Below are positions 23,501 to 50,763 of a DNA stretch of 64,000 nt, in pieces (positions within the stretch are counted from its first letter, which is position 1; the number at the start of each line of letters is the position of its first letter). The stretch is from contig NC_087074.1 in assembly GCF_026151205.1 (NCBI RefSeq), positions 6,386,001-6,450,000 of the forward strand. The letters are read 5' to 3'. A model generated the notes under the pieces. That model saw only the letters and a list, made by a program, of their open reading frames with translations. It had not been told where the DNA came from and did no database searches. This DNA is from Bolinopsis microptera. Its lineage: Eukaryota > Ctenophora > Tentaculata > Lobata > Bolinopsidae. The translations under genes and the position numbers were made by a program.

Positions 23501-26500
23501 AACTAATTTATGCAGATATGAACCAGAGGCAACATGTATTATATGTAGGTGCGGCAATATTTTGTTAATAGTGCGATTCCGCACCTCCCCAATAAGTTTT
23601 TATGTACGGCAAATTTAGAGACAAAAACACCGAACAATTCGCCAAATTCGCAGCCTTTAAGTACTCTCAGGTTGGATTATTCAATATAGCGTAGTATATA
23701 ACGTTGCGATTGTTATGTTTAACACGACAATTTATATTAATCTAAGACAATTAATTTACAATGTGTCTTAGTAATGTCTTACGCTGAGTTTTGTGCCAAT
23801 TCAAGATGTATGAACAAGCTTGTGCTGAGCATATTTGAAGTAGAGTATTCAATATTATTATAACTTTATAACTTTACAAAATATGTGTATATTGTACAAA
23901 CGACTAAGGTGAGACAAAGTGACTCAATTTCAATCTGGTTGCGATCCATCTTGACGAATTATTTATTTGCCTAGATTCGCCCTCATTTGTTTTTTAAAAT
24001 TAAATATCGATAGTATATTGTTTTTCTTGATTTTTCATTCTACATTCCGATGTTTTTAATGTTACATCATTACATGAAAAAAAGTTTGGCCCTAACCATA
24101 CTTATGGGTAATCCGATAATGGGTATGTCGATCACTGTACACAGCAATACCAAGTTAAAGTACACAAATCTGATAATAAGAATAACGGCCGATGGTGTAA
24201 CAACGGTTCAGTATTAGTTCAATAGTGCGATTCCGCAATCTGTACCCATCGCACTTATATGTTGTCTTTGAAATGAACACTGTATTTGAACGAAGGCGGT
24301 TTATATCATCTGCAAGAGAGAGAGAGAGAGAGATCATCTGCAAGCACATCAAAGCTATTTGATAGTTCATTTTTTGAGTCTTCGCTTTAAAAAAGTTAAC
24401 TCAACAAGATATTTTATATATGCGCATGAAGCTGAGCTTGCTCTTCACGCACATTATCACGCAAACCTACAAACATTGAGGCAGTTAACTGTTAACTGTA
24501 TCGTATTTTGTTTTCAAACTGATAACTGGCAACTGCGTCAGATACTTTACTTCAGTCGTCCCTGAAACATTCTAAAACTATTGTTTTGTAATGACAGATC
24601 CCAACAATGACGCTGATATGAGTGTAACACGTGACCTCCAAAGTAACCCTGGAGGACCAGAAGAACTGTCAGACTTCATCCTCCCCGATCTGATAGACTC
24701 CCCAGTGGACAACTACAGAGTGGCTATATCAGGAGCTCTGGTTATAGACCAGGGAACGCAAACTACAGCAGCTGATCCGGTGGCGAGAAGGGGGGTTAAA
24801 ACAGCTACCCCCACAAGTGTAAAGGGAGCTACCCCGACAAAGGGGGCTACCCCGACAAAGGGAGCTACTCCCACCAGTTTGAAGGGGGCTACTGACTCGG
24901 ATATAGCTACATCAGCCCTGGAAAGATGGGCAAAGAAGTGAGTTAGTGTATCACAATGGGTGCCATATGTTTTCGTCATTCCTTTGTGATAAAGCGGCTA
25001 TATCTTTACAGTTTTATCGTATTTATATTATCTTTAGTCCAGTCAATATATTTGGAAGACAATTAGTCTATTTGAAAGTACCACTGATTTCTTATCTACT
25101 CAATTTGATTGGTTTCCATTGATTTATATTGGAGCTCAACTTTAATAATAGCATTCATTAACCTTTCCTTTGTTAAAATTACGGTACTTGAGTACTTTTT
25201 GAACGGTGATAATAATAGAACAATACCTGCGTGTCGACTGAGTACTATCTTTGAAACTTAAATAACTCCTAACCTGTTCACTAATATAATATGTCTACTG
25301 GTGAGTGTACCTTGACAATCTCAGCAATCTTTCTTTGGTACTGTGCTTTGTATGTTGCCGTTTCAAAAAACAAACGTACATTTTACGCACTATTGTCTAT
25401 TATATAATATCCGCATGATTTGCTTACTTCTTAATCACATTTTTATGTAAAGAAATATTATTCAGTCAAAGTCAAACATATTAACAAACTTTTAGTAGAA
25501 GTTGTCATAAACTTGTTCTGCCTTCAGTTTTTATGTTCCCTTAAAAAATTTTGAAGCAGCTCTATTCACTGAAGCTATTACAAGCCAAGTGTCCAGCAGC
25601 TTGTGTAACGCCACACTTGACAGCAGCTTGTGTAACGCCACACTTGACAGCAGCTTGTGTAAGGGGAAATGGCGGATTCTAGGAAGGTTGCCCACACATT
25701 ATACAGAAGTTACAAGAGTTCTGCTCCAAGGCGCTCGAGTACCCAAAGTAAACCCACACCAAAAGAACCATCAGATTTTATTCTACCCGACCTGATAGAC
25801 TATGAAGCAGTTCATCCAGTAGTTAAAGAAAAATCTGTACTTAAAAGAGCACATCATAGATTATTCTATTCTAGTGCTGACAACGCTTCAGCTACCTCAG
25901 CCTTAGCTAGATGGGCTAGATTGATAACTATGTCAAGGAAGTTAGTCATATAACAATATAATATTCATTATTACCATTAATTAGTATTATTAATTAGTAT
26001 TACTAATTAGTATTATTAATTATTACTATTAATTAGTATTATTAATTATCAGTAATATGAACAGTATTCGTGTTATAGTATTAGAATGTAAAGGGGGTGG
26101 TGGTCATGGTAATTAAGGGGGTGGTGGTCATGGCCATTAAGCCCCCAATGTCGGTGCAAAGATTTCAGCATCATGATTAAATATTTGAAAGTACAAAATA
26201 CAACCCTCAAAAGTAAGTTTTCATGGTTCCGTCAAATAAAGAGAGAGAGAGTGAACAGGTAACTTTCTCAAGGTCCTCCACCTTTTTTATGCAGCCAGTT
26301 AATTGCATTTCAAGTTTACTTCAGATATCAGACATCTAAAAATACACCAACAGCAAGACACAGTGCCGACCACAAACCAACAAAAGGTATGCTATTTGGG
26401 ACCATCTCGTGTCACCATGCAATGTCTTCCATCTTTTAGTTATCATTGACAACTAACCTTATTCTTCTAGTTATCATTGACAATTAACCTTATTCTTCTA

Positions 26501-29500
26501 GTTATCATTGACAATTAACCTTATTCTTCTAGTTATCAGTGACAATTAACCTTATTTATAAAAACATCTTTTGAACTGATAATATAACAAATTATTTGGG
26601 AAGCATTTCTCATTTCTGTCCCATCATCCTGATTTTTTTTTATAGAATTCCTCTTACATACCTCTTACATACCTCTTACACATCGACCTAAGTTAACAAA
26701 CTCTTCTTCTCAGAGAGAAAACAATCCATCGCTGATCAAAACAGTCCAAGACATAGGTAAAAATAACTTCGGTTAGATAATCGGACACTTGATGGTAGCA
26801 TTTATTCTACTGGAGAGGACCTTATTGAAATTAATGACCCTGTTATCTAATATATGCTATCTAATACAACCAATGATTCCCACAGCGCAGGGTCCAGTCC
26901 TGTGAGCACTAAAAGGAGGAATAGTCACCAAGGTAACCATGATGCTAACCTTGGTAAGTCCTCTCCCTGCCCTTCCAACGCCTCCAAATCTGAACAAACC
27001 GGACCGAAAACACTTAAAACCAAGATATACGACATCTTGGAGAATCCGGAGACTGGTTTGGTGAGCAAATCTAAAGATTAAATACTGGAATTTTGATGAT
27101 GAAGCCTATATTGTTATGCATTAGCAGTCAACTAAAATCTGACTTAATTAAAGACATGTTTGATCAGGTAGCTCAGACTTTTAGTTGGGTAAGCATGGGT
27201 CTTATTGTACTCTCCGTGGCAACATTCATTGCGGAAACTATGCCCAAATTCAGAGCGGACCTTAAAAAGGTAAGAATTTTATCAAAGTTCAGCTCAGTTG
27301 CCCAAAATTAAGACACTAAATTAGCTACAAGTACAAGTATAACGGTAACTAGGATATGCTGAAAGTTGATGAATTTAACTTGATCGACTTTGTGTAGCGT
27401 TACAACACTATAATAGTGGAGCTGGATGGCAGTAAAATAATATTTAACTGGTTTCTATCTCCCAGCCCTGGTATACAACTAATACTGGAATGTTCTTCTT
27501 CGGTTCCGAGACGTTCTTTATCGCATTCTTCACTCTGGAGCTGCTCGGGAGATTTCTCTCGTGCCCTAATAAGGTCAGTGGATGGTGGTTCTTAATGATC
27601 TCGTATACGGAATATTATTTAGATAGGACATTGCTTGTGAAAAAAACCTGTGAAATATATTATGATTAATTAATCACAGTCTTCCCAATTCAACGAGATG
27701 TGTCCTTGATTAAAAAACCTAATATACAGCGTAATTTCAGAAAGGATTTGCGAAAAATCCTCTGAACATTATCGACCTGATATCTATTCTACCTTACTAC
27801 GTAGAGCTTATGGTCCCAAAGGTTTGTTTGGTTCCAAACACAATGAGTTTTTTTTTAATAACTTTCTTTTAACAGAAAAATAATTTACCTATCATTTAGC
27901 TGAATAATAGTGACGACTTGACAGTGACGACTTGACAGACTTAAGGTATTTAGCCTCGAACCGCCAATTGTGGAGAAATTTATTTTAAATTTGTTTAGTT
28001 CGATAACTTCAGTTTTAAGTTCAATTTTTTGCATAATTTTTGATTTTGATAAGTTCAGTTTTAAGTTCCATTTTTGTATTTATAGTAAGTTTTCAGTTCT
28101 ACAAGTCTTTTAAGTAGACTTATCAGGTCTTTAGGATGTTCTTAGTAACTACTTTGGATTTGTGTAAAGTTTGATAATAATATAATAATCATTTAGCTAA
28201 CAATTCAGTTATAAGCATTTAAAATCAAACCTTGACAGAGTGACGATGGTGAAGGGGTGAGTTTACGAATTTGACAGAAAACAGATAAGGAGATATTTTT
28301 AATGCTTAATTCCTTTATTTAAACAAATAAATCTTGCAGCTGAAGGCTTATCATACTTTGATTCATGAAAATCATGACTTTAATTATTAACGATCCGTAT
28401 ATCAAACATTGACCTAAGAATCCAGCTGCCTGCTACTCATCATCACAACAACTTTCTAACAATATCTCTAAAAACAGACCCCTTTTCTCAGAGCAGTAGC
28501 TCCATGACGTCATCTCTGGTTGTTCTGCGTGTTCTGCGCTTGTTCAGAGTGCTCAGGATATTCAAGCTAGGTCGCCATAGCAACAACATGATAGCGTTTG
28601 GGATAGCGCTGAGGGGCAGTATGATGGAGCTGATGTCTCTAGGTCTCTTCCTTGCTATTGATATTGTCGTCTTCGCCAGGTTAGTCTTATCTCTAGGTCT
28701 CTTCCTTGCTATTGATATTGTCGTCTTCGCCAGGTTAGTCTTATCTCTAGGTCTCTTCCTTGCTATTGATATTGTCGTCTTCGCCAGGTAAGTCTTATCT
28801 CTAGGTCTCTTCCTTGCTATTGATATTGTCGTCTTCGCCAGGTTAGTCTTATCTCTAGGTCTCTTCCTTGCTATTGATATTGTCGTCTTCGCCAGGTTAG
28901 TCTTATCTCTAGGTCTCTTCCTTGCTATTGATATTGTCGTCTTCGCCAGGTTAGTCTTATCTCTTTACATAAAGGAGCTTTTTCTTTATCAAATAATAAC
29001 AATCATGAGAGACAGTGCAAAGAGCTGGAGGAAGAATTTGTTTTGTAAGATTTTACAGCGCGTGGACGATCAAATCCAAGAAAAGAACTGTACTTGCAAG
29101 AAAATCATATATAATAATGTTTGTGTGTCCCGGTATAAACGATTGTATTATCAGCAAGAGTAAAATAAATTTGTAAATTTGTGGAAGAAACACGTCACAG
29201 CACTCTTGTCTAACCCCCTCCCCACCCCAGCGTGTTGTATTACTGTGAGATGAAGGACGATGGTAGTATTGCTATAGATGATCCCAACAACTTCTCAAGT
29301 ATCCCAGCATCCTGCTGGTGGGCTGTAGCGACTATAACTACTGTTGGTTACGGTGATATGTACCCTCGCACTTGGCTTGGCAAGATATTTGGTAGTTTCT
29401 GTGTTTTTAGTGGCATTCTTGTGATTGCCTTTCAGGTGCCCATCATCGTGGCAAAGGTTTGTTTACTTCCTTCCTCTTTAAAAAACAGTTGTGATCATTA

Positions 29501-32500
29501 TTTTCTTATCTCTTAAAACGATCAATTAGCTTGTCCATCAACAAGGCCATCAATTCCTTACTAAAAAATGATTGTCTAGACATGATATTACAGTAAGTAG
29601 GTTTACGATAGTGATAATATCAAATATCATAATAATAATATGTACTAGTTACTAACTTAATTTTGTACAATATAAAGATAATAAAATAATAATATTCAGT
29701 TCACGTGGACCTACATGCAAGTAAACAAGATGTCAGACGAAGACACAATGGAGTCTGTGGAGGAAGAGGATGACTCAGAGCAAGAAGATAGCAAACCAGA
29801 TCAGTAGTAACACTGTCACTTCCAAACCAGATCAATAGTAACGCTGTCACTTCATGATCTGTCACTTCGGTCATTCTTGAGACGTTATTCAAAACATGGT
29901 TTATTTTGTTGTGGCAGTGCCAAACATATGTTCAGATAACTTTGAAATGGACAGTGATTACAATATGAATAGTGAATACCATTCTTCGCTTCTTCGGGGT
30001 ACATTTAGTAATAGTTGTTGTTTTCTGATATTAATTTTATCGCGTTTACACTTGTTAATTAATTATAATTTCTTTAATCTGAAGGTGAGGCATGAAGAAA
30101 ATACCAGGATTGAATTATTCATTATACAGATTTACGTTAAACTTTTGTTTTTAAACGGATTCTAAAGAAATTTCAGACGAACAGCGAATGAGATTTAATG
30201 AGAAATATACTTAAATTCCGTGTAAAGCATATTTTATTAATGGAAATATAATCGAAAATATAATCGATTTATTTACATTTCAATAAATTAATCGATCAAT
30301 TAAGGTACTTACCCTAGTAGGGTTAAGCATGTTCTGCTCTGCTAGGTCCACTTTGGTTAGTACAAATATCGTCCTCTTCCCTTTAGGGTCATGTGCCTGG
30401 TAACAGACATAGTATCGGAACAGTTTAACATCCAGTACATAGTGCTCGATGAACTTAAAACTTGTGGTGTAGTGCTGCAAATGTTTTACGTCTCGAATTT
30501 TAACATCGATTATAAACGAATTTGTTTTCTTTTTATCACAAGCTAATTGGCCAATTTATGTAGTAAAATGTTATATAATGTACCTGAACGATGTTAGTAA
30601 CATTGCTACGTTCTGCGTCTATACTGCCGTCTTGTACACAGAGTATAATAGCGTTAGGGTTTCTCATGAACATAGCAGCCATCTCCGTGAGAGCTTCCTT
30701 TGTTTTGGGCATCATCCCTCTCGTCTCAGTCTGGAGAGTGAACACGTGATACTCTTATACTACACGTGATACTCTTATACTACACGTGATACTCTTATAC
30801 TACACGCGATACTCTTATACTACACGTGATACTCTTATACTACACGTGATATTCTTATACTACACGTGATACTCTCATACTACACGTGATATTCTTATAC
30901 TACACGTGATACTCTGATACTACACGTGATACTCTTATACTACACGTGATACTCTGATACTACACGTGATACTCTTATACTACACGTGATACTCTCATAC
31001 TACACGTGATACTCTTATACTACACGTGATACTCTCATACTACACGTGATATTCTTATACTACACGTGATACTCTTATACTAACAGTAAAGTTTGTATTA
31101 TTATATTGATTTGTAGAACTAGAACTTAAAATTTGTTAATGTTTTAGAAAAATGGCATGGTGCCAATTTGAGAAATGTCGGTATTAAACAATCCAAGTTA
31201 ATAATACACATTCCTGAGATCATGCGTGACACGTCAAACACCTTCAATCAGTGTACAATATGCCAACTACATACTACAAACTACACAGTACATCTCCCAA
31301 CATAACTACACGGTTAACAGCCAAGAGTAGACACACTAAGCCATGAGTCTCATTTCCAATGTCATGATCTTAAGACGGTTTGTGACCGATCCAAGGTGAG
31401 AATAGAATTAGTGAGACTCCACTTTTACAACAAATCGTCGAAAAAATACTCAATATGTAATTTAGAAGTAAGTTACTGACGCTGATAATGCCAGGAAGGT
31501 CCACAAGCACCATCCTGTGTAGTCCAGGACCCTTAACAGTCAGGGAGATAACTTCAGAGCTGACCGTCTCGCCTGGTTTCAGGTTCTTCGTCATCCGTCC
31601 TTCTACTGCTGCTCTTAATTCTTTTAGCTGATTAAGGGATTGTGGTTTACTTTTGCACACTAGGAATATACCATATTTTGAATTAGAGACCAAAGGTAAT
31701 AATCAATAATTATGTTGTAATTAAGAAATAAAAGGTATTTTAATATGAAAATGCGTGTCTGTACAAACTAGTTTTATCATATATTCTACATCAGAGGTTC
31801 AACAAGTATGTAACATACCTCTGCCTCGGAAGAGAGATCGAATACCCTGTCATCTCCATTGAACTGAGCAGTATGTCGGTTCCCCTCCCCAAGTGTTACT
31901 TGTACTGGAGACCTTGTCATCATCTCACCATGCCCTCTGAGACATATTTATTATTCAGTTTAGTTGGTCATCGTTCAAAAATATTCTATCATCTCCTGAA
32001 CATTCTAAAATATCCTAGCCCTGACTATCATCTCCATAACACTAGTTTTCTAACCTGGGGAATATCCTAGCTCTGACTATCATCTCCAGAACACTAGTTT
32101 TCTAACCTGGGGAATATCCTAGCTCTGACTATCATCTCCAGAACACTAGTTTTCTAACCTGGGGAATATCCTAGCCCTGACTATCATCTCCAGAACACTA
32201 GTTTTCTAACCTGGGGAATATCCTAGCTCTGACTATCATCTCCAGAACACTAGTTTTCTAACCTGGGGAATATCCTAGCCCTGACTATCATCTCCAGAAC
32301 ACTAGTTTTCTAACCTGGGGAATATCCTAGCCCTGACTATCATCTCCAGAACACTAGTTTTCTAACCTGGGGAATATCCTAGCCCTGACTATCATTTCCA
32401 GAACACTAGTTTTCTAACCTGGGGAATATCCTAGCCCTGACTATCATCTCCAGAACACTAGTTTTCTAACCTGGGGAATATCCTAGCCCTGACTATCATT

Positions 32501-35500
32501 TCCAGAACACTAGTTTTCTAACCTGGGGAATATCCTAGCCCTGACTATCATCTCCAGAACACTAGTTTTCTAACCTGGGGAATATCCTAGCTCTGACTAT
32601 CATCTCCAGAACACTAGTTTTCTAACCTGGGGAATATCCTAGCCCTGACTATCATCTCCAGAACACTAGTTTTCTAACCTGGGGAATATCCTAGCTCTGA
32701 CTATCATCTCCAGAACACTAGTTTTCTAACCTGGGGAATATCCTAGCCCTGACTATCATCTCCAGAACACTAGTTTTCTAACCTGGGGAATATCCTAGCC
32801 CTGACTATCATTTCCAGAACACTAGTTTTCTAACCTGGGGAATATCCTAGCCCTGACTATCATCTCCAGAACACTAGTTTTCTAACCTGGGGAATATCCT
32901 AGCCCTGACTATCATTTCCAGAACACTAGTTTTCTAACCTGGGGAATATCCTAGCCCTGACTATCATCTCCAGAACACTAGTTTTCTAACCTGGGGAATA
33001 TCCTAGCCCTGACTATCATCTCCAGAACACTAGTTTTCTAACCTGGGGAATATCCTAGCTCTGACTATCATCTCCAGAACACTAGTTTTCTAACCTGGGG
33101 AATATCCTAGCTCTGACTATCATCTCCAGAACACTAGTTTTCTAACCTGGGGAATATCCTAGCCCTGACTATCATCTCCAGAACACTAGTTTTCTAACCT
33201 AGGGAATATCCTAGCCCTGACTATCATCTCCAGAACACTAGTTTTCTAACCTGGGGAATATCCTAGCCCTGACTATCATCTCCAGAACACTAGTTTTGCC
33301 AGCACTCTGATCCCCGACCACCACTATCCGGGGTAGGTGGTCCTGTATCTTGTACGTGTTATCGTTATCAGACAGGGTGTCCAGCACTTCAGCGTACATG
33401 TCTATTATAGACTTCTGTAATGTTAAATATTATTGTACAATGTATAATAAGTACATGTCTAGTATATAGACTTCTGAGTTCTGTAATGTAAAATATTATT
33501 ATGGCCGACACGAAATTTGGTTATGATTTGGTTATCATAAAAATAAAAATATTTTCACTGATAAGGTCGTCCAAAACAGATAAGTTGAGGATTGTTAATT
33601 TATTGGCTGTTAATGATTGCAGTGTACAGTGGAACTAAACGTGTACTTATAGGCGTGTCTGCTCAATTAGTGTACTTCAATCGAATGTCGGCGGTTACAC
33701 AATAATCAGCTAATTACACAGTGCACATTGAGAACATAGATAGCTACTAAATAAAGCAATTATTAGTCATATATTAGACAAGTTGCAGACATTGTATAGC
33801 CGACCAACTGATTAAATGTACAATGTGCACTGATATAGTATTGTTGTTGTGACTGACCAGCTAACTCTACAGTTGTGCAAACTGCAGATTGTACAACAAT
33901 ATTATTTGCAGATAAAGAGACAAAATACTTTGCATTTTACGTGCGTAAAATGTTTAAATTACATTTTGTGACATAAAGCTGCAAAAATTGACGTGAATCA
34001 AAGCAAAACAAGAGGTAGCCTCTTTTCCCAACAAAGTTCTATGACAACATCTTGATTCTTGAAGGCCTTAATAATTAACAAATAAATTACCTTGACAGAG
34101 CTAGTTTTGAGATTAACAAATAAATTACCTTGACAGAGCTAGTTTTGAGATTAGAGTTCTTGACTAAGAACTTGAGCTGCTCGTTCTCACTACGGTACTT
34201 ATCCAGTTCCCTCTTGTAGCTCTCCTGCAGCTTCAGTAGCTCCTTCCTCAACTCTGTTTCTGTTCTGTGCGAGTCCTGAGGGAGAGAGGAGAGAGAGTTA
34301 GACTTTACTTGGTACTTTACAAGACATGCTCAGAAGAATAGTTCACCAATCAGCATATCATTTATTCGTCATAAAAGAGAAACCCATAAGTGCACAAAAC
34401 GCAGAGCAACTGAGGCAATCACATCACGTGGCGGTTTGAACACTTATAACTTATGTTCCTCAGTGCTATTTACTGTCCCGACAGTGGTTAACAGACCAGG
34501 GTTGAGATATTATCCAATAAGTACTCATTCTCCTATTTCCTAGCTAACAATCCTATCACACACATTATTATAGTTCATACAACAGGGGGGTGTATACATT
34601 ATGTATACATGCTGGGAACATTGTACAAAGTATACATGCTGGGGCAGGGTACTTATAATTAATAGATTAGGTGTAGATACCATTCATTAGGAAACACACA
34701 CCTCATACTTGTACCACTGTGTGGTAAAGATATCCTAGCATCTTACATAATATACATGTCATGAAAAAGTGAATTTATTGACAACAAATTCTTCTGATTT
34801 TGACTAGTTAATCATAAACTAGATGATCATTCCATTTTTATTGCTTAAATCGAAAGAACAATTAATCTAGATTTGAATATCTCTTCAGTTCAAAGAAGAA
34901 AAGGTTCGCTTCAAATCCTTACTGATTTATCAGAATTTATTTTGCTTTTGAGATCTTTATTTTCTTGAAGAAGTTCTTCAATTTGTAATGCTACCTGCCA
35001 GAGAAGTAATCACAAAAAGAGAAAATGAAGCAATTATATGATTATAATTGTTACGTAATTAAGATAAAGAGCGACTCCTGATCCTGCTAAATGCTATTTT
35101 GGGCAATTGATTTTAGGAAAGTAAAGCTAGCTCAAAGTAAAGCTCTCTCAACAGCAAAAACCCGAACGCCAAATTAAAATGAACTAATCTGAACTAATCT
35201 CACATGGAAACTAAATCTCACTTACATTTTGAGCTTCAGCAAGTTCTTCTTTAAGCCTTTCTTTTTCTTCCTGAAACTTTGAATCTTTTTCATTCATAGC
35301 TTCCTCCTTTGCTTTTATTTCTTGAGCAAGTTTTCCTAGTTCTTCTTGGTGCTTCAGATCTTTTTCCTGCAAGGAATAATAAATTCAATATTCAATATTA
35401 TATAGATACCACGCTCATCAGACCCAAAAACGTGTAATTTTAATATAATTTAGGTAGGTTTAAAGATTTTAACACTCCTTAACATACTCTAAATCCGATG

Positions 35501-38500
35501 AAAATATTCTACAAAGTTTATGCTACATGAAGAACAGCAGGCCTGAAAAACGTCTCTCAGCTCACATTTTGCATTGAATCAAGCTCCTCCCGGAGTCTTT
35601 CTTTCTCCTTTAGCTCTTGAGAAAGTATGCCCAATTCCTCTTGATGTTTCAAATCTCTCTCCTGGAAGAAACGTCATGTTCATCTACAGCATCTTTGGAG
35701 CTTTGGAGAGGTGGGGTACATTGTCGTGAGGGTCCGGTTGTGGTGAGGGGTTGTGGTGACTGGTGACGTGAGAACAGTGTATTCAGTAGCATCCCGATTT
35801 ACCGCAAAGTTTGGGGAAAGGAAAAATCCGCAGTAAATCGGGGGTCCACAGACCGCAGTTAATCTGTTAATCGGGGTTTTGTTTGTTTACAGGGGGGTGT
35901 CACGTCCGTCTATGTCCTGTCCTTTTTGGATTCTATGAGACAACGGACATTGGTGGACATTAGCGGACATGGGGTAGCTTAAAACATGAATAGAAATAGT
36001 TTCCAGAAAAAGTTTGAAAATTTTTGACTTGGAAAAATTTCAGTCCGAGTCGATCTCGATACGAACCTTAGAAGGCAGAGCTCCCGCTTCCGAGCTCGTG
36101 TTACAAAGGGGAAGCTTGCCTTCCGAGATCGCATAACAAAGGGGAACCCTCGAGTCCTAAATTGTAAATCGAACGGTAGGTGGGGACTTTGAAAACCGAA
36201 AAAATATTTTTGGCTCATAATGATCAGGGTAGCTTAAAACATGAATAGAAATAGTTTCCAGAAAAATTCCGGAAAATTTTCAGTCCGAGTCGATCTCCAT
36301 ACGAACTCGGACTGAGTCCGAGCCGGGTAGGTGCGGCCGGACTTTGAAACCGAAAAAAATTGTTTTTGTCCGAATAATTTTTAAGAGGTCTAAAGAATAA
36401 ATATCTCACCAATATTCCCAATATTTAACTAAATCCAGTCACTAAATCCGGTCGCTAAATCCAGATCTCTATTTGTGTCGTCAACATATCTTTGAAACAG
36501 TTACACACTACACAGGGTACACACTACACAGTAGGCACAGTACCTATTTAACGAAATATAGGGAATATAACAGCAAAAATTGAACATTTTATTTAGCAAT
36601 TTAGGTGTCCATTAATGTCCGCTAATGTCCGCCAAAGTCCGTCTATGTCCGCCAAAGTCCGTCTATGTCCGCCTATGTCCGCCTATGTCCGCCTACGTCC
36701 GCCTATGTCCTGTCCTGTCCTGTCCTGTCCAGTCCTTTTTGGATTCTATGAGACAAGCGGACATTTACACTAAACATGTTAAGCCCTATTAGGGGGGAAG
36801 GATGTGGCTGCAGTGAATCAGGGTTTTACTGTACTTAGTGAAGCTCATGGTGGTTTTAAAGATTTGTGTAGTTCTTCTAGGACTTTACCAAGATACTGAG
36901 ATCATGAGTCAGCTTGAAAGTGATCATATCTATTGAAGACGATAATGACGTTGAAAATGGTGACGTTAAAGATGATGACGTCGAGGATTAACGTAAAAGA
37001 GCAGATGTATCCTTTACACATAGTGAGTTTTGAAATCGAATAATAAGTTTCTAGCGAATAAGTATTCTAGCCCCTGGCAGCTAGAGGTTATTTACTCTAA
37101 TGAGGTTAAATAACAATCCACCTAGACAATGTAAACAAGTACAGATAACAAAAGATTACTGAACATAACAGTCATGTCTAGGTTGAATCAATTGAAACAA
37201 TTCTCAAAACTCACATTTTGTGTTGCATCAAGTTCTTCCATGAGTCTTTCTTTCTCTTCTAGCTCTAGAGACAGTTTTTCTAATACTTCTTGATGTTGTA
37301 CCAGTGTCTCCTGTAATCACATATCAATATAAAGAAGAGTAATTCAAATTTAAAATGTATTGAATATAATATTTCTATATTTTAATTAAATATATAAACA
37401 TTAAATCAGGAATAGGATACATACATCAGGGATTGTACATTGAGAAGGCTCAGACTCAAGCTCAGGTAGTGGTACTTCCAACAAAACTGGACTGTCCATA
37501 ACTTCTTGTATTTGTCTCTGAATATCTTGTGCTTCTTCGTCTATCTCTGGCTCTTCAATCTGGAGCTTAAGATTCTTGAATTGACATTTTTTAGCAATTC
37601 AACTATGTGTGAAAATTACTTCTTGTTTGACATAAACTGGCGTGAGACATATTAGATATAAAACTTGTAAGCTAATACAATATAAACAGAATCATTCCAT
37701 TAGGAAAGAAACAGCTGAATTCTTGAAGTTATTGACAAATCTTTGAAGTAAGTTTTACAAAATGTCTCACAGGTTTGAGTGGTTGAAGGGGTGGTATAGC
37801 AGGGGTAACCTCGTCACCTGCGTTAGGGAGCAACATGTAGTTTCTGTGTAATCCTAAAGACATGGTGGGAGATAGAGCTTATGTATCTAACACACTATAC
37901 ACACAAACCTTATATAAACCTCTAAACATTACACGCATACAAATATTATATCACACAATGTTCATAGAATTATTGTAGTTAAGAAATATTTCCTCATGAC
38001 ATGCTCAGTCAAATTAAGATAAGCCACAAAAACAGCATAATGTTACAAAAATTATGTAGTGATTCTGCTAGATAATTTTACCTCCATTGAGAATGTCATT
38101 AAAACCAGCAACACTATCTCCGAATGAGTTTTTAAGCTCGTCAATTTTATCCAAGTAGCTCCTTCCTGTCAGGTATAAAGTGAACTCATGATACTGACAC
38201 AAAATTGAAATACAATCTTCTTAATAAAAACCTCCAAAACTGAAAGTCTGACAACACAACGTCAATAGCCTTTAAAGTTTAAAATAAAATATTTGAAAGA
38301 TGTCACACAACATTTAGAGATTTAGAAATCAAAATCTGTATCATGTGTACCGTAATGAGAGTAAGATCTAGCCGACATTGCAAGAGAGTTTAGTCCATCA
38401 GCCATTGTGTCATAGGGTAGGCTCAAGTTCTTTGAAACTTCACCATGCGTCTCATCAATCTTGTTGCTTACCTGTGAACACGATAAGATTTATAACCCAA

Positions 38501-42408: not shown

Positions 42409-45400
42409 TTAGTGTTGAATAGGATGAATATTCAGCTTTCCAGTCTGAATAACAGCCAGTAAATTTTCCACTGGATCTTTATTCTTTGGACTTTTGGTAA
42501 GACAGTCAGCTAGTTGCTGAGGATCAGGAATCCATACAACCTTGTTTATCTCCTCATCGTCTATAATCTTTCTGAGATATGCAACTTGTACTCTCATCTT
42601 TAAGTCAACAGATGGATTAGTAGAGTAGATGTTCTCTTTTACAGATAAATTGTCAGTTAAACCAATGATAGGAACAGTGTCTTTTGTCTTATTTTGAGAT
42701 AGACATAGAGCGGTGATGATAGTCTCTCGTATCAGATAAGCTTCATCCAAACATTCACCAAGAGCCATGGCTTCTGCATAACTGATGGTCTTGGTAACTT
42801 TTTTGATCTTTCTTGAGCACCATGATAAAATTCCTGCACTGTCTCCACTAACGAGAAATATAGCGTGCCCGCGTGCACTTGATGTCCTACCAGGGAGCAT
42901 ATTAAGCGAAGCATCAGCATAAGCATAGATCTTTAATTGAGAGATGTCTTTAGACAAGGATGGAAGCATTATGGTTACCGTTTGCTTCTTTAATTTCTTG
43001 ACAATAGCATTTAGATTTATTAAATCAGAAACTCTAGGCTTTGCTGCTTTCATACTGCTTTCGAGGACTTTGTAGCGTAGGTCAGGGCGGCTTTGAGATG
43101 TTATCCACTGAAGCTTGCCTAGTAGTTGTTGAAACTCAGTCTTCTCAAGATCGCTCAGTTCATAATCAGGTTGGTTTCTCCTTCCTGAGCTTATACTTAC
43201 AGGGCTAATTTTAGTTTCTTGGTAATCTATTTGATCAATAGTCACGGTATTATTAGATACAGCAGATTGTTTTATGTTCCAACCAACATAGGTGAAGTCA
43301 CCGTACTCCTCTGTTCCAATCTGAAACTTCTCTTTCAATCTCCTTAAAACTTTTTCATGGAAGTCCTTATTTCCCGCCGCTAAGAAATCGTCCACATGCA
43401 CATTTAGGAAACCCGAGAATTCTTCATTGGGTTGGTACACAAAAACTGACTTGTCAAGTGGCATCTGAACACAACCATAAAGAATAAGCTCTTCTTTCAC
43501 CGTCATATACCATGCCCTGGCAGCATCATTCAGGCCATATACAGGCTTCTTGAGTCTCCAAACCATGTTGTTATCAGTTCTCTTCTCCTTTGGGGGTTTA
43601 ACCAATATCAACCTATCCAAAGGCTTGGACTGCAAAAAGGCAGCACGTACGTCAATGCACAATAGTTTGTACTCAAACATGTTAGCTAGCATGATGAATG
43701 TTCTTGTGACACATTTACCAGCTGTAGGTGAGTCAGCTACCTGAGGATTGGACTCCTGGAATCCTCTTATCACAAGGCGAGCTTTGGTGCATAAACCCTC
43801 TGGTTTCTCCTTTTGATTTATAACCCAACGACATGATAACACTTCTTGATTTGGAAATTTTCTTTTATCAACTTCTTCGTAGACGTCGAACTTCTGCCAT
43901 TGTTGCATTTCCTTTTCCATTGCAATTTCTTCTTCGTTGGATGATGGTCTAGCTATGTTTAACCAAATCTTTTCGTCTCCAATTGCATCAGCAAATAATC
44001 CTGCATCATCATTTTTAGCAGGCATCTCTTTGGTTCGTAACCATTCGACCAATTCTAGGTCAACAATGAAGCGTTCACCTGAATTGTTGACAACTTTCCA
44101 TCGTTCACCTGCCAGTCCTTCTTTTTCAATTAGGCTGCATGACACCCATGTGTTGAATTCAATGTTCTTAATGTAGATGACATCTCCTCTTGTCATTTGA
44201 GTCGATGAGCGTGATCTAAGTCTGGAAGATATTCCATTGTCCTTTTCCTCATCTATGGAATCCTCAGCATCAAAGAATTCCTCTGTGTTGACTGGTTCCT
44301 CGACTGTTGCTTCTATCTCCATAGACTCAGGCTGTATTTCTGGTGTCTCATTTTGCACAGTTTCTTTCTCTGCGTCAACTTCGATGTTGTTATGCTCTGT
44401 GCTTGCAGCAGTGTCTTCTGTTACCTGTTCTAATGGAGGAATGACTGGTCTAGGTTCATCATCATCAGAATCACTGTCGGTGTTATCAGGGATTGTCTGT
44501 TTCTCAGGACTCTTATTAGTCTGTTCAATTTCTTCTGCTTGTGTCTGATCTGGTGAGTTCATCTGTTTTTCAGCAGTTTGCTTTAAGATTAGCTTACAAG
44601 GATGGACTTTTATTAAGGTTCTGGCTCCTGTTTTGACCAATACCTGCGCACCATCTTGTCCAAGTACTTTTCCTGGTCCTTGCCATTGTTTTAAGTCTCT
44701 CTTCTTGTAATATACAATATCCCCACTGAAGAACCTTTGGTGTGTTCCAGCATAAACTCGTCCTCTCATAGCACGAGCCACTCTTTCTGCATTCTCTGCT
44801 TTGATGTAAGCTTCTCTAGACATTCTCAAGCTGTTTAGGTGATTTGCAACAGTTTGACTGGATGTGTACGATGACATTGCTGGTAATTTATTGGTACTAT
44901 TTCCTGGAATGTTTGGATTCTTCCCAAAGACTAACTGGTACGGTGAGAAACCTAGTACGCTAATAAGAGAATTTTTAGCGTGTATAGCCCACATAAGAGC
45001 AATTTCAATCTTGCATTTAACATCCTCCATTACCTTTTGAGTCATGTGACCAATCAAGTCATTGTGACGTTCGCAAATACCGTTCTGGAATGGTGCTTCT
45101 GAAGCAGTGTCTTTGTGTAGTATGTTGAAAGCTGCAAACATTGACTGCCATTTGTCATTGACAAATTCTCCGCCGTTGTCTGTAAGAATCTTTTCCGGTG
45201 GCCCGAATACTGAAATCCAGCATTCAAAAAGTTTTTCCATCACCTCATCTGAGTCTTTGCTCATCAGGACCTGTGCAGATGAGAACCGGGTTACATAGTC
45301 ACAGCAATGAAGGATCCACGTTCCATTTATCTTCTTGAGATCCATGGTTACTAATTCATTGAATTGGTATGCAAGAGGTAAGGCAACTGTGGGTCTTGGA

Positions 45401-46701
45401 TGAGCACGTTTATGTTTAAGGCAGTAGTCACAAGAGGTATCTAAAACTATCAGCTCTCTCTCAACTTCTTTATTGGACATATCTGCATTCTTCAGAAGTT
45501 TAATTACTCTCCCTGAACCTGCATGTGCAAAGCGCTTATGAAGTTTAAGGGCTTTCTTCTTAGCTTCAAGTACGCCTGTATGATCTTCATTGGCAATCAT
45601 AATCTCACAAGTGACATTGTTGACATAGGATGGGTCTCTCTCTTTTGCTAGTGGTAAGGCATAATGTCCTGTACTTGTTGTTGTTAAGGAGAATGAATTA
45701 CCATCAATCTTAGCTTCATCGGTCTCAAAATCAATATTCATTCCTAAAGCTTTCATAGTCTGTAGTGATATGAGGAGGGGAATATCCGTGGCTACCACAT
45801 CTACCTCTAATCTGATGTCACGTTTGCATATCGTCACTGGGATAAGAACTCTCTTTGATGCTCTCATAGTGCCGACCCCAAACCTGAACATGGTGTCGGA
45901 AGGGTATTCAGTCACTTGTTCTCTAACCTTTTCAGGGAGTGAGTCTAGGTAAATAGTGTACCATTCTGTGCCACATACGGTACGACTGGCTCCGCAATCA
46001 AGAACTGCTTGATTGATTGTTTCGTCAACTAAAAGTATAGTCTCAATCTCGCTTCCAATATTAGATTGGAAGAATATAGGTATCCCACTTACATCAGATG
46101 AGCTCTGTTGGCTCTCATAAAACTGATCATCATAGCTAGCTTCTTCAGAACATAAATAATTATTATAGCCTCTGCTATTGTTGTTGGATCTGCTATTGTT
46201 GGATCTGCTATTATTGTTGGATCTGTTGTTGGATCCAGTCATTCTTTGCCGCAATTCACGTACATGAGGGCAGTCTCTAATCATATGGTTCAGGTCACCA
46301 CATCCATAACACTCACGGCTGTAGGTAGTGTTTCTTTGATCTCTGTTAAATGGGGGTCTTTGATTTCTTCTGTCTCTGTTGTACAGTACCTCCTCTTCTT
46401 CTTGATGACTCCCATAGAAGTTTATCTCTTGCTCCTCTTTAACAACGGGTCTAATCTGAATCTTGGAAGAGTCAGACGTGATTAAGGGGGTGTTAACATG
46501 TGAATCAGTTAATCGCAACAGTGCTTTTTTGGAGTCACTCATAGTTTTATTAGTACATGTTGCATTAGCGATGCGCTTGTCACTTTCACTGAGCTGCGCT
46601 CCTTCAATAATTAGATATGAAAGAATTAAATCTGGAATTTCAAGTCCACCAGTTTTCAGTTTAGCAACCTTGCTTTCGTAAAAGTGAATATACTCTTTCA
46701 T
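42409..46701 (-). CDS. Copia gag-pol frame (retroelement fossil)
   Basis: A 1430-codon frame of a Ty1/Copia element. In order it holds the end of gag with a CCHC zinc knuckle, an aspartic protease, a zinc-binding plus catalytic integrase, a basic/acidic linker, reverse transcriptase and RNase H. Integrase before reverse transcriptase is the Copia order, opposite to Gypsy. Plus-strand frames within this interval are antisense shadows. Because the surrounding element is interrupted, this is annotated as part of a recent fossil. Confidence 0.93.
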   Translation of the reverse strand: MKEYIHFYESKVAKLKTGGLEIPDLILSYLIIEGAQLSESDKRIANATCTNKTMSDSKKALLRLTDSHVNTPLITSDSSKIQIRPVVKEEQEINFYGSHQEEEEVLYNRDRRNQRPPFNRDQRNTTYSRECYGCGDLNHMIRDCPHVRELRQRMTGSNNRSNNNSRSNNSRSNNNSRGYNNYLCSEEASYDDQFYESQQSSSDVSGIPIFFQSNIGSEIETILLVDETINQAVLDCGASRTVCGTEWYTIYLDSLPEKVREQVTEYPSDTMFRFGVGTMRASKRVLIPVTICKRDIRLEVDVVATDIPLLISLQTMKALGMNIDFETDEAKIDGNSFSLTTTSTGHYALPLAKERDPSYVNNVTCEIMIANEDHTGVLEAKKKALKLHKRFAHAGSGRVIKLLKNADMSNKEVERELIVLDTSCDYCLKHKRAHPRPTVALPLAYQFNELVTMDLKKINGTWILHCCDYVTRFSSAQVLMSKDSDEVMEKLFECWISVFGPPEKILTDNGGEFVNDKWQSMFAAFNILHKDTASEAPFQNGICERHNDLIGHMTQKVMEDVKCKIEIALMWAIHAKNSLISVLGFSPYQLVFGKNPNIPGNSTNKLPAMSSYTSSQTVANHLNSLRMSREAYIKAENAERVARAMRGRVYAGTHQRFFSGDIVYYKKRDLKQWQGPGKVLGQDGAQVLVKTGARTLIKVHPCKLILKQTAEKQMNSPDQTQAEEIEQTNKSPEKQTIPDNTDSDSDDDEPRPVIPPLEQVTEDTAASTEHNNIEVDAEKETVQNETPEIQPESMEIEATVEEPVNTEEFFDAEDSIDEEKDNGISSRLRSRSSTQMTRGDVIYIKNIEFNTWVSCSLIEKEGLAGERWKVVNNSGERFIVDLELVEWLRTKEMPAKNDDAGLFADAIGDEKIWLNIARPSSNEEEIAMEKEMQQWQKFDVYEEVDKRKFPNQEVLSCRWVINQKEKPEGLCTKARLVIRGFQESNPQVADSPTAGKCVTRTFIMLANMFEYKLLCIDVRAAFLQSKPLDRLILVKPPKEKRTDNNMVWRLKKPVYGLNDAARAWYMTVKEELILYGCVQMPLDKSVFVYQPNEEFSGFLNVHVDDFLAAGNKDFHEKVLRRLKEKFQIGTEEYGDFTYVGWNIKQSAVSNNTVTIDQIDYQETKISPVSISSGRRNQPDYELSDLEKTEFQQLLGKLQWITSQSRPDLRYKVLESSMKAAKPRVSDLINLNAIVKKLKKQTVTIMLPSLSKDISQLKIYAYADASLNMLPGRTSSARGHAIFLVSGDSAGILSWCSRKIKKVTKTISYAEAMALGECLDEAYLIRETIITALCLSQNKTKDTVPIIGLTDNLSVKENIYSTNPSVDLKMRVQVAYLRKIIDDEEINKVVWIPDPQQLADCLTKSPKNKDPVENLLAVIQTGKLNIHPIQH

Positions 46702-46743
46702 AGTTTGATCTTTACTGCGTCTAAATCGGTAAAATTGATCAAA

Positions 46744-49700
46744 GGGGGGGGTGTCATGTCCGTCTATGTCCGCCTATGTCCTGTCCTTTTTGGATTCTAT
46801 GAGACAACGGACGTGTTTTTTGGGACATTGGCGGACACGGACGGACATTGGCGGACTCGGACGGACATTGGCGGACTCGGACGGACATTGGCGGACTCGG
46901 ACGGACATTGGCGGACCCGGACGGACATTGGCGGACTTGGATGGACATTGGTGGACATTAGCAGACATTGGTGGACATTAGCGGACAAACATTTTGAGGA
47001 CTGAAGAGTACTGAAGAGTACTGAGGAGGATGGCTGAGAAGGATGGCTGATGAGGATGGCTGAGGAGGATGACTGAGGAGGATGACTGAGGAGGATGACT
47101 GAGAGGGAGGAGAAGGATCAGGAAGACCCAGGAGGAGGAGGAGGAGGAGGACCCAGAAGGAGGACCTAGGAGGAGGAGGAGGAGAACTGAGGAGGATTAC
47201 TGAGGAGGAGGAGGATGGCTGAGGAGGATGACTGAGAGGGAGGAGGAGGAGGAAGAGGAGGAAGAGGACTGAGGAGGAGGAGGAGAAGGACTGAGGAGGA
47301 GAAGGAGGACCCAGGAGGAGGAGGACCCAGGAGGAGGACCCAGGAGGAGGACCCAGGAAAAGGCCCCAGGAGGAGGAGGAGGACTGGGGAGGAGGAGAAC
47401 TGTTGAGGACTGATGAGGAGGACTGAGGACGGGGAGGAAGAGTAGGAGGAGGACTGAGGAGGGGAGGAGGAAGAGGACTGGGGAGGATGGCTGAGAAGGA
47501 TGGCTGAGGAGGATGGCTGAGGAGGATGACTGAGGAGGATGACTGAGGAGGATGACTGAGTGGGAGGAGAAGGATCAGGAAGACCCAGGAGGAGGAGGAG
47601 GAGGAGGACCCAGAAGGAGGACCTAGGAGGAGGAGGAGGAGAACTGAGGAGGATGACTGAGGAGGAGGAGGACTCAGGAGGAGGCACGAGGAGGACTGAG
47701 GAGGACCCAGGAGGAGGACCCAGGAAAAGGCCCCAGGAGGAGGAGGAGGACTGGTGAAGAGGAGAACTGTTGAGGACTGATGAGGAGGACTGAGGACGAG
47801 GAGGAAGAGTAGGAGGAGGACTGAGGAGGGGAGGAGGAAGAGGACTGGGGAAGATCAGGAAGACCCAGGAGGACCCAGGAGGAGGAGGAGGAGGAGGACC
47901 CAGGAGGAGGAGGAGGACTGAGGAGGACTGTGGAGGAGGACTGACGATGACTGAGAAGGAGGAGGACTGAGGAGTACTGAGGAGGATGGCTGAGGAGGAT
48001 GGCTGGGGAGGATGGCTGAGGAGGATGACTGAGGAGGATGACTGAGAGGGAGGAGGAGGACTCAGGAGGAGGACTCAGAAGGAAGAGGAGGAGGACTCAG
48101 GAGGAGGACTTAGGAGAAATGAGAAGGAGGACTGAGGAGAACTGAGGAGGAGGAGGAGGATGAGGACTGAATAGGAGGAGAAGGAGGGGGACTGGGAGAG
48201 GACTGGGGAGGAGGAGGACTGATGAGAAGGATGAGGAGGAGGACCCAGGAGGAGGAGGACTGAGGAGGAGGACTGAGGAGGACTGAGGAGGATGGCTGAG
48301 GAGGATGACTGAGAGGGAAGAGGAGGAGGAGGACCGAGGAGGACTGAGAAGGAGGAGGAGGAGGACTGAATAGGAGGAGGATCAGGAGGAGGGGGACTGG
48401 GGGAGGACTGAGGAGGAGGATGGAGGACTGAGGAGAAGGATGAGGAGGAGGACTGAGGAGGACTTAATAGGAGGAGGAGAAGGAGGGGGACTGGGAGAGG
48501 ACTGGGGAGGAGGAGGACTGATGAGAAGGATGAGGAGGAGGACCCAGGAGGAGGAGGACTGAGGACCGAGGAGGAAGAGGAGGAGGATGAAGAGGAGGAG
48601 GAGGACCCAGGAGGAGGAGGACTGAGGAGGACTGAGGAGGATGGCTGAGGAGGATGACTGAGAGGGAAGAGGAGGAGGAGGACCGAGGAGGACTGAGAAG
48701 GAGGAGGAGGAGGACTGAATAGGAGGAGGAGGAGGGGGACTGGGGGAGGACTGAGGAAGAGGATGGAGGACTGAGGAGAAGGATGAGGAGGAGGACTGAG
48801 GAGGAGGATGAAGAGGAGGAGGAGGAGGACCCAGGAGGAGGACTCAGGAGGAGGAGGAGGACTGGGGAGGAGGAGGACTGTTGAGGACTGATGAGGAGGA
48901 CTGAGGACGAGGCGGAGTAGTAGGAGGAGGACTGAGGAGGGGAGGAGGAAGAGGACTGAGGAAGATCAGAAAGACCCAGGGGGAGGAGGAAGAGTAGGAG
49001 GAGGAAGCATCTAAATGTTATTTCCATTTTTGAGGAGGAGGAGGAGGACCCAGAAGGAGGACCTAGGAGGAGGAGGAGGAGAACTGAGGAGGATGACTGA
49101 GGAGGAGGAGGACTCAGGAGGAGGCACGAGGAGGACTGAGGAGGACCCAGGAGGAGGACCCAGGAAAAGGCCCCAGGAGGAGGAGGAGGACTGGTGAAGA
49201 GGAGAACTGTTGAGGACTGATGAGGAGGACTGAGGACGAGGAGGAAGAGTAGGAGGAGGACTGAGGAGGGGAGGAGGAAGAGGACTGGGGAAGATCAGGA
49301 AGACCCAGGAGGACCCAGGAGGAGGAGGAGGAGGAGGACCCAGGAGGAGGAGGAGGACTGAGGAGGACTGTGGAGGAGGACTGACGATGACTGAGAAGGA
49401 GGAGGACTGAGGAGTACTGAGGAGGATGGCTGAGGAGGATGGCTGGGGAGGATGGCTGAGGAGGATGACTGAGGAGGATGACTGAGAGGGAGGAGGAGGA
49501 CTCAGGAGGAGGACTCAGAAGGAAGAGGAGGAGGACTCAGGAGGAGGACTTAGGAGAAATGAGAAGGAGGACTGAGGAGAACTGAGGAGGAGGAGGAGGA
49601 TGAGGACTGAATAGGAGGAGAAGGAGGGGGACTGGGAGAGGACTGGGGAGGAGGAGGACTGATGAGAAGGATGAGGAGGAGGACCCAGGAGGAGGAGGAC

Positions 49701-50763
49701 TGAGGAGGAGGACTGAGGAGGACTGAGGAGGATGGCTGAGGAGGATGACTGAGAGGGAAGAGGAGGAGGAGGACCGAGGAGGACTGAGAAGGAGGAGGAG
49801 GAGGACTGAATAGGAGGAGGAGGAGGGGGACTGGGGGAGGACTGAGGAGGAGGATGGAGGACTGAGGAGAAGGATGAGGAGGAGGACTGAGGAGGACTTA
49901 ATAGGAGGAGGAGAAGGAGGGGGACTGGGAGAGGACTGGGGAGGAGGAGGACTGATGAGAAGGATGAGGAGGAGGACCCAGGAGGAGGAGGACTGAGGAC
50001 CGAGGAGGAAGAGGAGGAGGATGAAGAGGAGGAGGACCCAGGAGGAGGAGGACTGAGGAGGACTGAGGAGGATGGCTGAGGAGGATGACTGAGAGGGAAG
50101 AGGAGGAGGAGGACCGAGGAGGACTGAGAAGGAGGAGGAGGAGGACTGAATAGGAGGAGGAGGAGGGGGACTGGGGGAGGACTGAGGAAGAGGATGGAGG
50201 ACTGAGGAGAAGGATGAGGAGGAGGACTGAGGAGGAGGATGAAGAGGAGGAGGAGGAGGACCCAGGAGGAGGACTCAGGAGGAGGAGGAGGACTGGGGAG
50301 GAGGAGGACTGTTGAGGACTGATGAGGAGGACTGAGGACGAGGCGGAGTAGTAGGAGGAGGACTGAGGAGGGGAGGAGGAAGAGGACTGAGGAAGATCAG
50401 AAAGACCCAGGGGGAGGAGGAGGAAGAGTAGGAGGAGGAAGCATCTAAATGTTATTTCCATTTTTGTCCGTTTTTGTCCATTTTTGTCCGTTTTTGTCCG
50501 CTCTATTTTTTGTCCGTTTTGAAAATATAGGGTACCGAACGGACAAAAAACATGATCCCCCTATAACAGAAAAAATTGAACATTTTATTTAGCAATTTAG
50601 GTGTCCATTAATGTCCGCCTATGTCCGCCTATGTCCGTTTATGTCCGTCTATGTCCGCCTATGTCCGCCTATGTCCGCCTATGTCCGCCTATGTCCGTCT
50701 ATGTCCTGTCCTTTTTGGATTCTATGAGACAAGCGGACATAGACGGACGTGACACCCCCCCCC
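46744..50763. mobile_element. GTCC-repeat DNA transposon inside the Copia element
   Basis: ATCAAA flanks both sides (46738-46743, 50764-50769). The ends are inverted repeats: GGGGGGGTGTCATGTCCGTC on the left and, reversed, GGGGGGTGTCACGTCCGTCT on the right. Subterminal arrays of GTCCGCCTAT and GGACATTGGCGGAC units follow, and both ends carry TGTCCTTTTTGGATTCTATG. No transposase is seen. Most of the interior is a purine array. A related element lies at about 35892-36770. The family is not known to me. Confidence 0.75.
47010..50440 (+). repeat. 3.4-kb GGA-rich purine array with 1434-bp duplication
   Basis: Nearly all purine on the plus strand, in units such as AGGAGGAGGACTGAGGAGGA. A segment of about 1434 bp is repeated in tandem: about 47595-49028 recurs at 49029-50462, each ending with AAGCATCTAAATGTTATTTC. 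The long frames (Ser/Pro/Leu on minus, Glu/Gly/Arg on plus) are products of the repeat. Such tracts can form triplex DNA or quadruplexes. Confidence 0.9.

Follow-up and report, generated by a model that had tools for sequence, protein, structure and literature searches.

The window, i.e., the whole 64,000-nt stretch of DNA that was analysed, contains a complete OPA1 gene on the minus strand, modelled as 23 exons encoding 1,043 amino acids, with all introns of the GT-AG type; a Kv-like channel gene is nested inside one of the OPA1 introns. The OPA1 model matched the Pfam families OPA1_C (2e-122) and Dynamin_N (5e-38), and a 745-residue part of it aligned with the OPA1 chain of PDB entry 8eew (3.8e-259); identity to human OPA1 was 55% (385/696 aligned). 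Gene model, Pfam and the 8eew alignment thus agree with the preliminary description, which had named the gene OPA1 and the affected exon its P-loop exon. It is to be noted that the 8eew alignment runs unbroken over the exon 11/12 junction as formed by the first of the repeated donors listed in Table 1.

Table 1. Repeats and gene features around OPA1 exon 11 (window positions; a slash marks the splice junction)
Feature	Position	Strand	Basis
Kv-like channel exon 9 (S4-S5), with the first donor in the 54-bp array at its 3' end	28492..28679	+	
Kv-like exon 9 end with donor CAG/GTTAGT, 54 bp x 6.1	28636..28964	+	TRF, gene model
31-bp x 2 repeat: Kv-like last codons and stop copied into 3' UTR	29792..29853	+	TRF, sequence
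OPA1 exon 12, acceptor CTCAG/AGG	31819..31936	-	gene model
OPA1 intron 11, 1,314 nt, array share 94.5%	31937..33250	-	gene model
Two decayed units without CAG/GT donor, acceptor-side end	31980..32054	-	sequence read by eye
52-bp tandem array; first copy is the end of exon 11 itself	32009..33297	-	TRF, unit listing
24 donor copies AG/GTTAGA; exon ends 33251, 33199 ... 32055	32055..33251	-	minus-strand scan
OPA1 exon 11 (P-loop exon), 164 nt	33251..33414	-	gene model, PDB alignment, tblastn
Diverged duplicate of OPA1 exon 11 acceptor	33394..33500	-	local self-alignment
OPA1 exon 10 end with donor AAG/GTAATT, 38 bp x 2.1, 100% identical	34074..34153	-	TRF, gene model

Tandem Repeats Finder (TRF) assigned the array in intron 11 a period of 52, 24.8 copies and 98% matches, and the unit joins the 47 nt at the 3' end of exon 11 to five intron bases, GTTAG. 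By minus-strand scan, the donor AG/GTTAGA occurs 24 times at 52-bp spacing, namely the exon's own donor and 23 more, copy 2 reading TAG/GTTAGA and the remaining 23 CAG/GTTAGA. TRF and the donor scan therefore agree that the P-loop exon end and its 5' splice site are repeated within the intron, as had been described; the 52-bp unit was also correct, but the shared exon bases measure 47 rather than 44, and the nearly identical splice sites in a row number 24 rather than about 25. Single-base variants aside, the array donors share 47 bases upstream and at least 46 downstream. The variant types are interspersed among the units (ataBBaaCaCaBaBaCaCaaBaBB), and the substitutions in the 24 donor-bearing copies are of three kinds, all synonymous in the OPA1 frame (chance ~0.02). 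The interior is homogenised, and the acceptor-side units, judged by eye, are decayed. Block duplication, as read from the order of unit types, was a weak candidate (45/1000 shuffles match with gaps and 1316/5000 without) and was set aside.

The singularity first ascribed to this array was overstated, since two more donor arrays lie in the window and the class has been described before. In both sibling arrays, at OPA1 exon 10 and Kv-like exon 9, the exon is again the first copy. The ends of the 38-bp exon 10 repeat carry a 4-nt microhomology (TAAT), and those of the 54-bp Kv-like array one of 5 nt. The Kv-like unit equals 18 codons, and among its six copies of exon end and donor the strongest donor is that of copy 3 (CAG/GTAAGT), not copy 1; donors 2 and 3 give in-frame products, i.e., the products of this array are partly in-frame. 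The acceptor of OPA1 exon 11 has a duplicate as well (original at about 33394-33434, copy at about 33451-33500), with a self-alignment score of 18.5 versus a shuffle mean of 8.7, reached by 0/200 shuffles. In the boundary arrays and the stop-codon repeat alike, it is only the first copy that preserves the normal product.

Local copies were sought at 64 junctions, against shuffles in 3-base blocks, and in four of these 64 tests the score was reached by 0/200 shuffles: OPA1 donors 10 and 11, OPA1 acceptor 11 and Kv donor 9. The best local copy of the OPA1 donor 11 region scored 31, where shuffles averaged 9.2. Kv-like acceptor 11 (2/200 shuffles), acceptor 8 (3/200) and donor 8 (6/200) had weaker copies and were not classed as duplications. 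Of the gene span, 20-23% is tandem repeat, and the idea that arrays are enriched at splice sites was rejected: they contain 3/33 donors and 0/32 acceptors, compared with null means of 6.5-7.7 (6.7-7.7 for donors) from the full set of circular shifts. At least 3 donors fell in arrays in 95-98% of the shifts, and at least 0 acceptors in all of them; this null is generous in that exons are not kept repeat-free. The input was 46 arrays, merged by hand out of 72 TRF rows: overlapping rows were joined, and a few with a short period or a position distant from the genes were left out; 31 arrays of period >=10 and 20 of period >=18 fall within the gene span. The 32-kb OPA1 sense span holds 53 GT sites that score at least as high as the array donor, 24 of them inside the array; this donor is of medium strength, 15 of the 31 other donors scoring at least as high. 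Folding of a two-unit RNA was no better than that of shuffles (z -0.88; 34/200 as good), and the whole-array fold, which had no control, was uninformative on donor choice. A search for related loci in viral contigs gave 22 pattern matches and 0 confirmed relatives.

Read-through of OPA1 donor 1 yields RIFPR-L-E-N-stop, and donors 2, 3 and 24, those translated of the 24, each lead to R-L-E-N-stop at residue 403, which upholds the earlier claim of a premature stop just past the first donor. The stop falls in exon 11 of 23, upstream of further junctions. Exon 11 measures 164 nt with donor 1, 216 nt with donor 2 and 268-1,360 nt with donors 3-24; the internal exons of OPA1 span 47-213 nt (n=21), such that the donor 2 exon is 3 nt above the largest of these and below one of 226 nt in the Kv-like gene. 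Splicing from the last intact donor would produce an intron of 118 nt, which makes this donor usable on size, because the shortest introns of both genes are of 107, 113 and 114 nt. In favour of the mirage reading set out below, a changed donor base is seen in copy 2 alone, the copy nearest to the normal exon size (1 in 23, post hoc).

Mirage minisatellites, known from lancelet genes, are described as tandem repeats lying across the border between an exon and an intron, with AG/GT in many, not all, units (PMC3087553). We consider it probable that the OPA1 array is a largely neutral minisatellite of this type, in which the first donor is picked by exon definition. The process may have started with a tandem duplication at the 3' end of exon 11 that carried the 5' splice site along, after which the duplicated exon end and donor would have grown into the intron, presumably by slippage or unequal exchange. 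The slippage origin proposed earlier finds support in kind from the microhomologies at the ends of the sibling arrays; the far end of the OPA1 array, where AAAACTAG would be compared, is decayed. Considered as a candidate hot spot, AAAACTAG occurs 16 times outside the 52-bp array (7 + 9 by strand; about 1.9 per strand expected from base composition); seven of these sites fall in 331-bp satellite arrays, and the 38-bp repeat holds two.

Since the donors share their flanking bases, what chiefly tells them apart is where they lie with respect to the remainder of exon 11. Cells would tolerate the array because exon definition decides splicing: donor 1, at 164 nt from the acceptor, would yield an exon of normal size, whereas donors 3-24 would exceed any other exon of the gene and donor 2 would do so barely, so that the 23 downstream donors may mostly be ignored and the array would largely be a passenger. 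The positional rule of the preliminary description, that the first donor wins, accordingly stands as the best explanation, which we infer from the near-identical donor surroundings; its operation in vivo, like the neutrality of the array, is probable. The mirage reading is favoured because first-donor splicing gives an OPA1-colinear protein, because boundary arrays and a stop-codon repeat recur in the window, because arrays are not enriched at donors, and because lancelet mirages of the same build are reported to splice regularly. Against it stand the human IFI6 gene, in which two downstream repeat units are reported to serve as donors (PMC4526556), such that duplicated donors are not always ignored; the near-normal size of the donor 2 exon and the usable size of the last intron; the Kv-like copy 3 donor, which beats copy 1; and the all-synonymous variants, a pattern not required of an intronic array that evolves purely neutrally.

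The array might instead be a rheostat of unproductive splicing, in which some transcripts use donors 2-24, meet L-E-N-stop and undergo NMD, such that array length or U1/SR levels set the OPA1 level; tuning of this sort had been offered as an alternative in the preliminary description and is not supported. The truncation at residue 403 and the medium donor strength speak for this, as does the fact that OPA1 dosage matters in animals; nonetheless we regard it as unlikely, considering that the stop is not a common feature, the Kv-like sibling giving partly in-frame products, that the donors of the window lack array enrichment, and that lancelet mirages are reported without aberrant mRNA (PMC3087553, PMC3902484). 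Recursive splicing or re-splicing is very unlikely: here TTCCCCAG/GTTAGA of the unit would serve as both acceptor and donor, the intron being removed stepwise, and a wrong donor k would be correctable, as the normal exon end is restored when donor 1 is joined to the AG in whichever copy. The acceptor CCCCAG/G of the unit does score 9.5, at or above 25 of the 32 real acceptors (the latter scored leave-one-out), and the Kv-like array also has the AG/GT overlap (acceptor score 5.9, at or above 13/32), but any CAG/GT exon end after pyrimidines looks like such a site, and the 52-nt unit is shorter than every intron of both genes (minimum 107 nt).

We also hold it quite improbable that the array is a copy-number-dependent, self-correcting element, in which 24 overlapping acceptor-donor sites restore the normal junction by recursive or repeat splicing, escape to a later donor leads to NMD, and array length, which may vary between individuals or cells, sets OPA1 output. 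The all-synonymous variants would then reflect exchange between the intronic units and the coding copy. An assembly or library artefact, with the array inflated and the true copy number far smaller, deserves thought in that minisatellites are hard to assemble and the copy number of lancelet PGBD5 differs between two genome versions (PMC3902484); yet the interspersed unit variants and decayed end units are unlike a plainly copied block, and the window has donor arrays at three places, each with its own period, making this, too, an improbable account.

The locus offers a natural experiment on how 5' splice sites are chosen, with 24 almost identical donors in near-equal local sequence, among which a functional protein is expected from the first alone. 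Counts of donor usage would gauge exon definition (or transcription order) with donor strength unchanged, and the Kv-like neighbour can serve for contrast, in that its donors 2 and 3 lead to in-frame products and copy 3 has a stronger donor than copy 1. Should copy number vary between individuals, a natural dose series would be at hand.

Among known systems, a minisatellite that supplies several splice donors, as the OPA1 array does, was reportedly described by Turri et al. in 1995 for human IFI6 (6-16). The IFI6 unit is of 12 bp. Two downstream units there are reported to serve as donors, resulting in three mRNAs (PMC4526556), whereas the downstream OPA1 donors that were translated (2, 3 and 24) would truncate the protein. 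In the Rogers 1989 model, as retold in PMC4974935, introns are gained through tandem duplication of AGGT segments; the OPA1 array likewise makes extra splice signals from a duplicated AG/GT segment, but it lengthens an existing intron from its 5' edge and implies no new one. The closest likeness is to the lancelet mirages of Adh3, the globins BflGb6/BflGb9 and TnC, together with the similar imperfect repeats of PGBD5, where repeats may occur at 5' as well as 3' boundaries and reportedly leave regular splicing undisturbed (PMC3087553, PMC3902484); homogenised units inside the cluster with diverged ones at its boundary, and length instability between haplotypes or cells, are described for their cephalochordate hosts (PMC3087553). 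The OPA1 array shares with these, as so described, the boundary-spanning unit (47 exon and 5 intron bases in 24 donor-bearing copies), AG/GT in most units (24, two further decayed units having lost the donor), the homogenised interior with diverged end units, and repeats at both boundaries of exon 11. It differs from the lancelet cases in having 24 donors, compared with 6 and 3 copies in two BflGb6 haplotypes, in lying on a catalytic P-loop, and in being one of three donor arrays within 6 kb. Overall, the OPA1 array looks like a striking example of an already known class of exon-edge repeats rather than a new device.

The window was found to hold a complete OPA1 gene, for which the 23-exon model has GT-AG at all introns and a joined frame of 1,043 residues plus stop; its first coding exon was set from an ATG, and the model covers the exons from there on. 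Pfam matched it to OPA1_C (2e-122) and Dynamin_N (5e-38), and the top PDB match of a 745-residue part was OPA1 itself (8eew, 3.8e-259), aligned in a single stretch from upstream of the P-loop to the final residues. The array that fills intron 11 takes up 1,242 of its 1,314 nt, and on the coding strand each 52-bp unit consists of the final 47 bases of exon 11, the P-loop exon, followed by GTTAG. It carries 24 AG/GTTAGA donors at 52-base spacing (the slash marking the boundary), numbered here from the first, which is the real exon 11 donor; CAG/GTTAGA is found in 23 of them and TAG/GTTAGA in copy 2. The preliminary description was therefore close but not exact, having put the donors at about 25 and the exon bases per unit at 44. 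Past donor 24, two more units were recognized by eye, both decayed and with CAG/GT gone.

Donor 1 gives the full OPA1 protein, whereas donors 2, 3 and 24, which were those translated, give RIFPR-L-E-N-stop and end at residue 403; the remaining later donors would end there as well, since the same bases are read into the first added unit. With donor k, exon 11 measures 164 + 52(k-1) nt. Compared with the 21 internal exons of the model (47 to 213 nt), donor 2 yields an exon just beyond the range (216 nt), and donors 3-24 yield exons well beyond it (268-1,360 nt). Donor 24 would leave an intron of 118 nt, and the shortest introns of the OPA1 and Kv-like genes are 107, 113 and 114 nt; thus, this donor is not forbidden by size alone. 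The strength of the array donor is middling, as 15 of the 31 other donors score equal or higher on a weight matrix built from these two genes, which is small and gives rough scores.

Since the local sequence of donors 1-24 is equal save for single-base variants, it is mainly position that distinguishes them. We infer that the first donor is chosen by exon definition, in which U1 at this donor would pair with the exon 11 acceptor factors across an exon of normal size. Among identical donors created by duplication, it can also be the intron-proximal copy that is preferred, and the first-donor outcome is therefore not trivial. The sole altered donor, copy 2, is the one nearest to normal exon size, which fits exon definition, although this coincidence is one event in 23 and was spotted post hoc; its variant makes the U1 duplex weaker by calculation (-5.5 instead of -7.1 kcal/mol) and leaves the matrix score undiminished.

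Other readings of the array were also considered. Its copy number, known from one sequence, could have been inflated in assembly, but the variants interspersed among the units and the decayed end units speak against this. An unproductive-splicing rheostat is a possible but improbable reading. Recursive splicing within the array would use the CCCCAG/G of the unit as an acceptor, and this site indeed scores at least as high as 25 of the 32 real acceptors; however, such a score is a by-product of any exon end of the pyrimidine-CAG/GT type, and the reading is accordingly given little weight.

Slippage at AAAACTAG is proposed as the origin of the 52-bp array, the far end of which has decayed. The 24 donor-bearing copies show three kinds of substitution, namely GAG to GAA (4 copies), AGG to AGA (7) and CCC to CCT (1), none of which alters the amino acid encoded in the exon frame; the chance of this is about 0.02 if transitions hit the 47 bases at random (13/47 synonymous), in a test of just three events that was picked after the data were seen. 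The synonymous variants hint at a possible exchange of array units with the coding copy. A decayed end unit, which lies outside this count, has a non-synonymous CTG to ATG change.

Repeats of the same kind occur elsewhere in the window. The ends of the 38-bp repeat at OPA1 exon 10 and of the 54-bp array at exon 9 of a Kv-like gene bear microhomologies of 4 nt (TAAT) and 5 nt (TCTCT), respectively, such as slippage or microhomology-mediated duplication would leave; upstream of the OPA1 exon 11 acceptor lies a diverged copy of it. The Kv-like potassium channel gene lies on the strand opposite to OPA1; its model of 11 exons and 485 residues matched Ion_trans (3e-44), with the T1 domain absent from the families listed, and a 294-residue part had Kv2.1 (KCNB1) as top PDB match (2e-56). 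Its array unit is 18 codons long, and use of donor 2 or donor 3 would insert 18 or 36 in-frame residues, respectively, in the S5 region. Read-through to donors 4-6 meets a stop codon in copy 3, because this copy is GTAAGT and the others are GTTAGT; copy 3 is also the strongest donor of the six.

A local-copy test of 64 junctions (32 donors and 32 acceptors) placed four above all 200 shuffles, the next best standing at 2, 3 and 6 of 200. Three of these four junctions follow one another in OPA1, a clustering spotted post hoc. Of the 32-kb gene span, 20-23% consists of tandem arrays, which contain 3 of 33 donors and 0 of 32 acceptors. Donor enrichment in arrays was not found: about 7 donors are expected at random, and at least 3 fall inside in 95-98% of all circular shifts, a generous null in that exons were not spared. 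Nothing suggests that splice donors are favoured targets of arrays. The simplest account, we infer, would be a minisatellite-rich genome combined with a filter, by which a duplication would be harmless if the first copy of the donor or stop codon stays put.

Two further arrays lie close to OPA1 acceptors. In the 20-bp array, the branch point of the exon 14 acceptor may be present many times, and the units of the 42-bp repeat contain ACTAACTAA(C/A), similar to a branch-point consensus.

Features of the window, with positions counted within it
Feature	Position	Strand	Remarks
OPA1 gene	38,742 down to 6,349	-	
OPA1 coiled-coil exons 6-8	35226-37310	-	by eye, look like serial duplicates of each other
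OPA1 exon 10 end + donor repeat	34074-34153		38 bp, two copies, 100%
52-bp array	32009-33297		period 52, 24.8 copies, 98% matches (Tandem Repeats Finder)
20-bp x 17 array	30742-31082		ends about a dozen nt from OPA1 exon 14 acceptor
Kv-like channel gene	24591-29807	+	nested in 16.3-kb OPA1 intron 15
Kv-like alternative first exons	24591-24937, 25669-25940		two, related in sequence
Kv-like candidate microexon	28239-28256		18 nt
Kv-like exon 9 end + donor array	28636-28964	+	54 bp, six copies, 99%
Kv-like stop-codon repeat			31 bp; places stop codon copy in 3' UTR
331-bp satellite arrays	8952-10480, 11367-13167		both within OPA1 intron 17; consensus units look like one sequence in opposite orientations
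42-bp repeat	7250-7348		directly upstream of OPA1 exon 21 acceptor
Copia-like retrotransposon frame	42409-46773	-	intact, 1,454 codons; rve match in first 629 residues
GAG/AGG-rich low-complexity repeat	47016-50441		about 3.4 kb
Pyrimidine 5'-nucleotidase exons	56741-62666	-	UMPH-1, three pieces; two likely donors GTTAGT, like Kv-like gene (by eye)

Tandem repeats spanning exon-intron boundaries are known from the lancelet Adh3 and globin genes, where they were named mirages. Their units measure 10-72 bp in Adh3 and 150-160 bp in the globins, and AG/GT signals are present in many of them; the Adh3 data, together with RT-PCR on the globins, are reported to point to splicing that proceeds regularly (PMC3087553). 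According to a PGBD5 paper, the same holds for Adh and for troponin C; two imperfect arrays are described there in addition (PMC3902484). We met no mention of an OPA1 mirage in the literature looked at, where the queries did not carry the OPA1 name, and absence is not claimed. The lancelet precedent, by analogy, points the same way as the first-donor reading, whereas human IFI6 stands against it, since downstream repeat units are said there to serve as donors (PMC4526556). The OPA1 array is a real, extreme case of a known kind.
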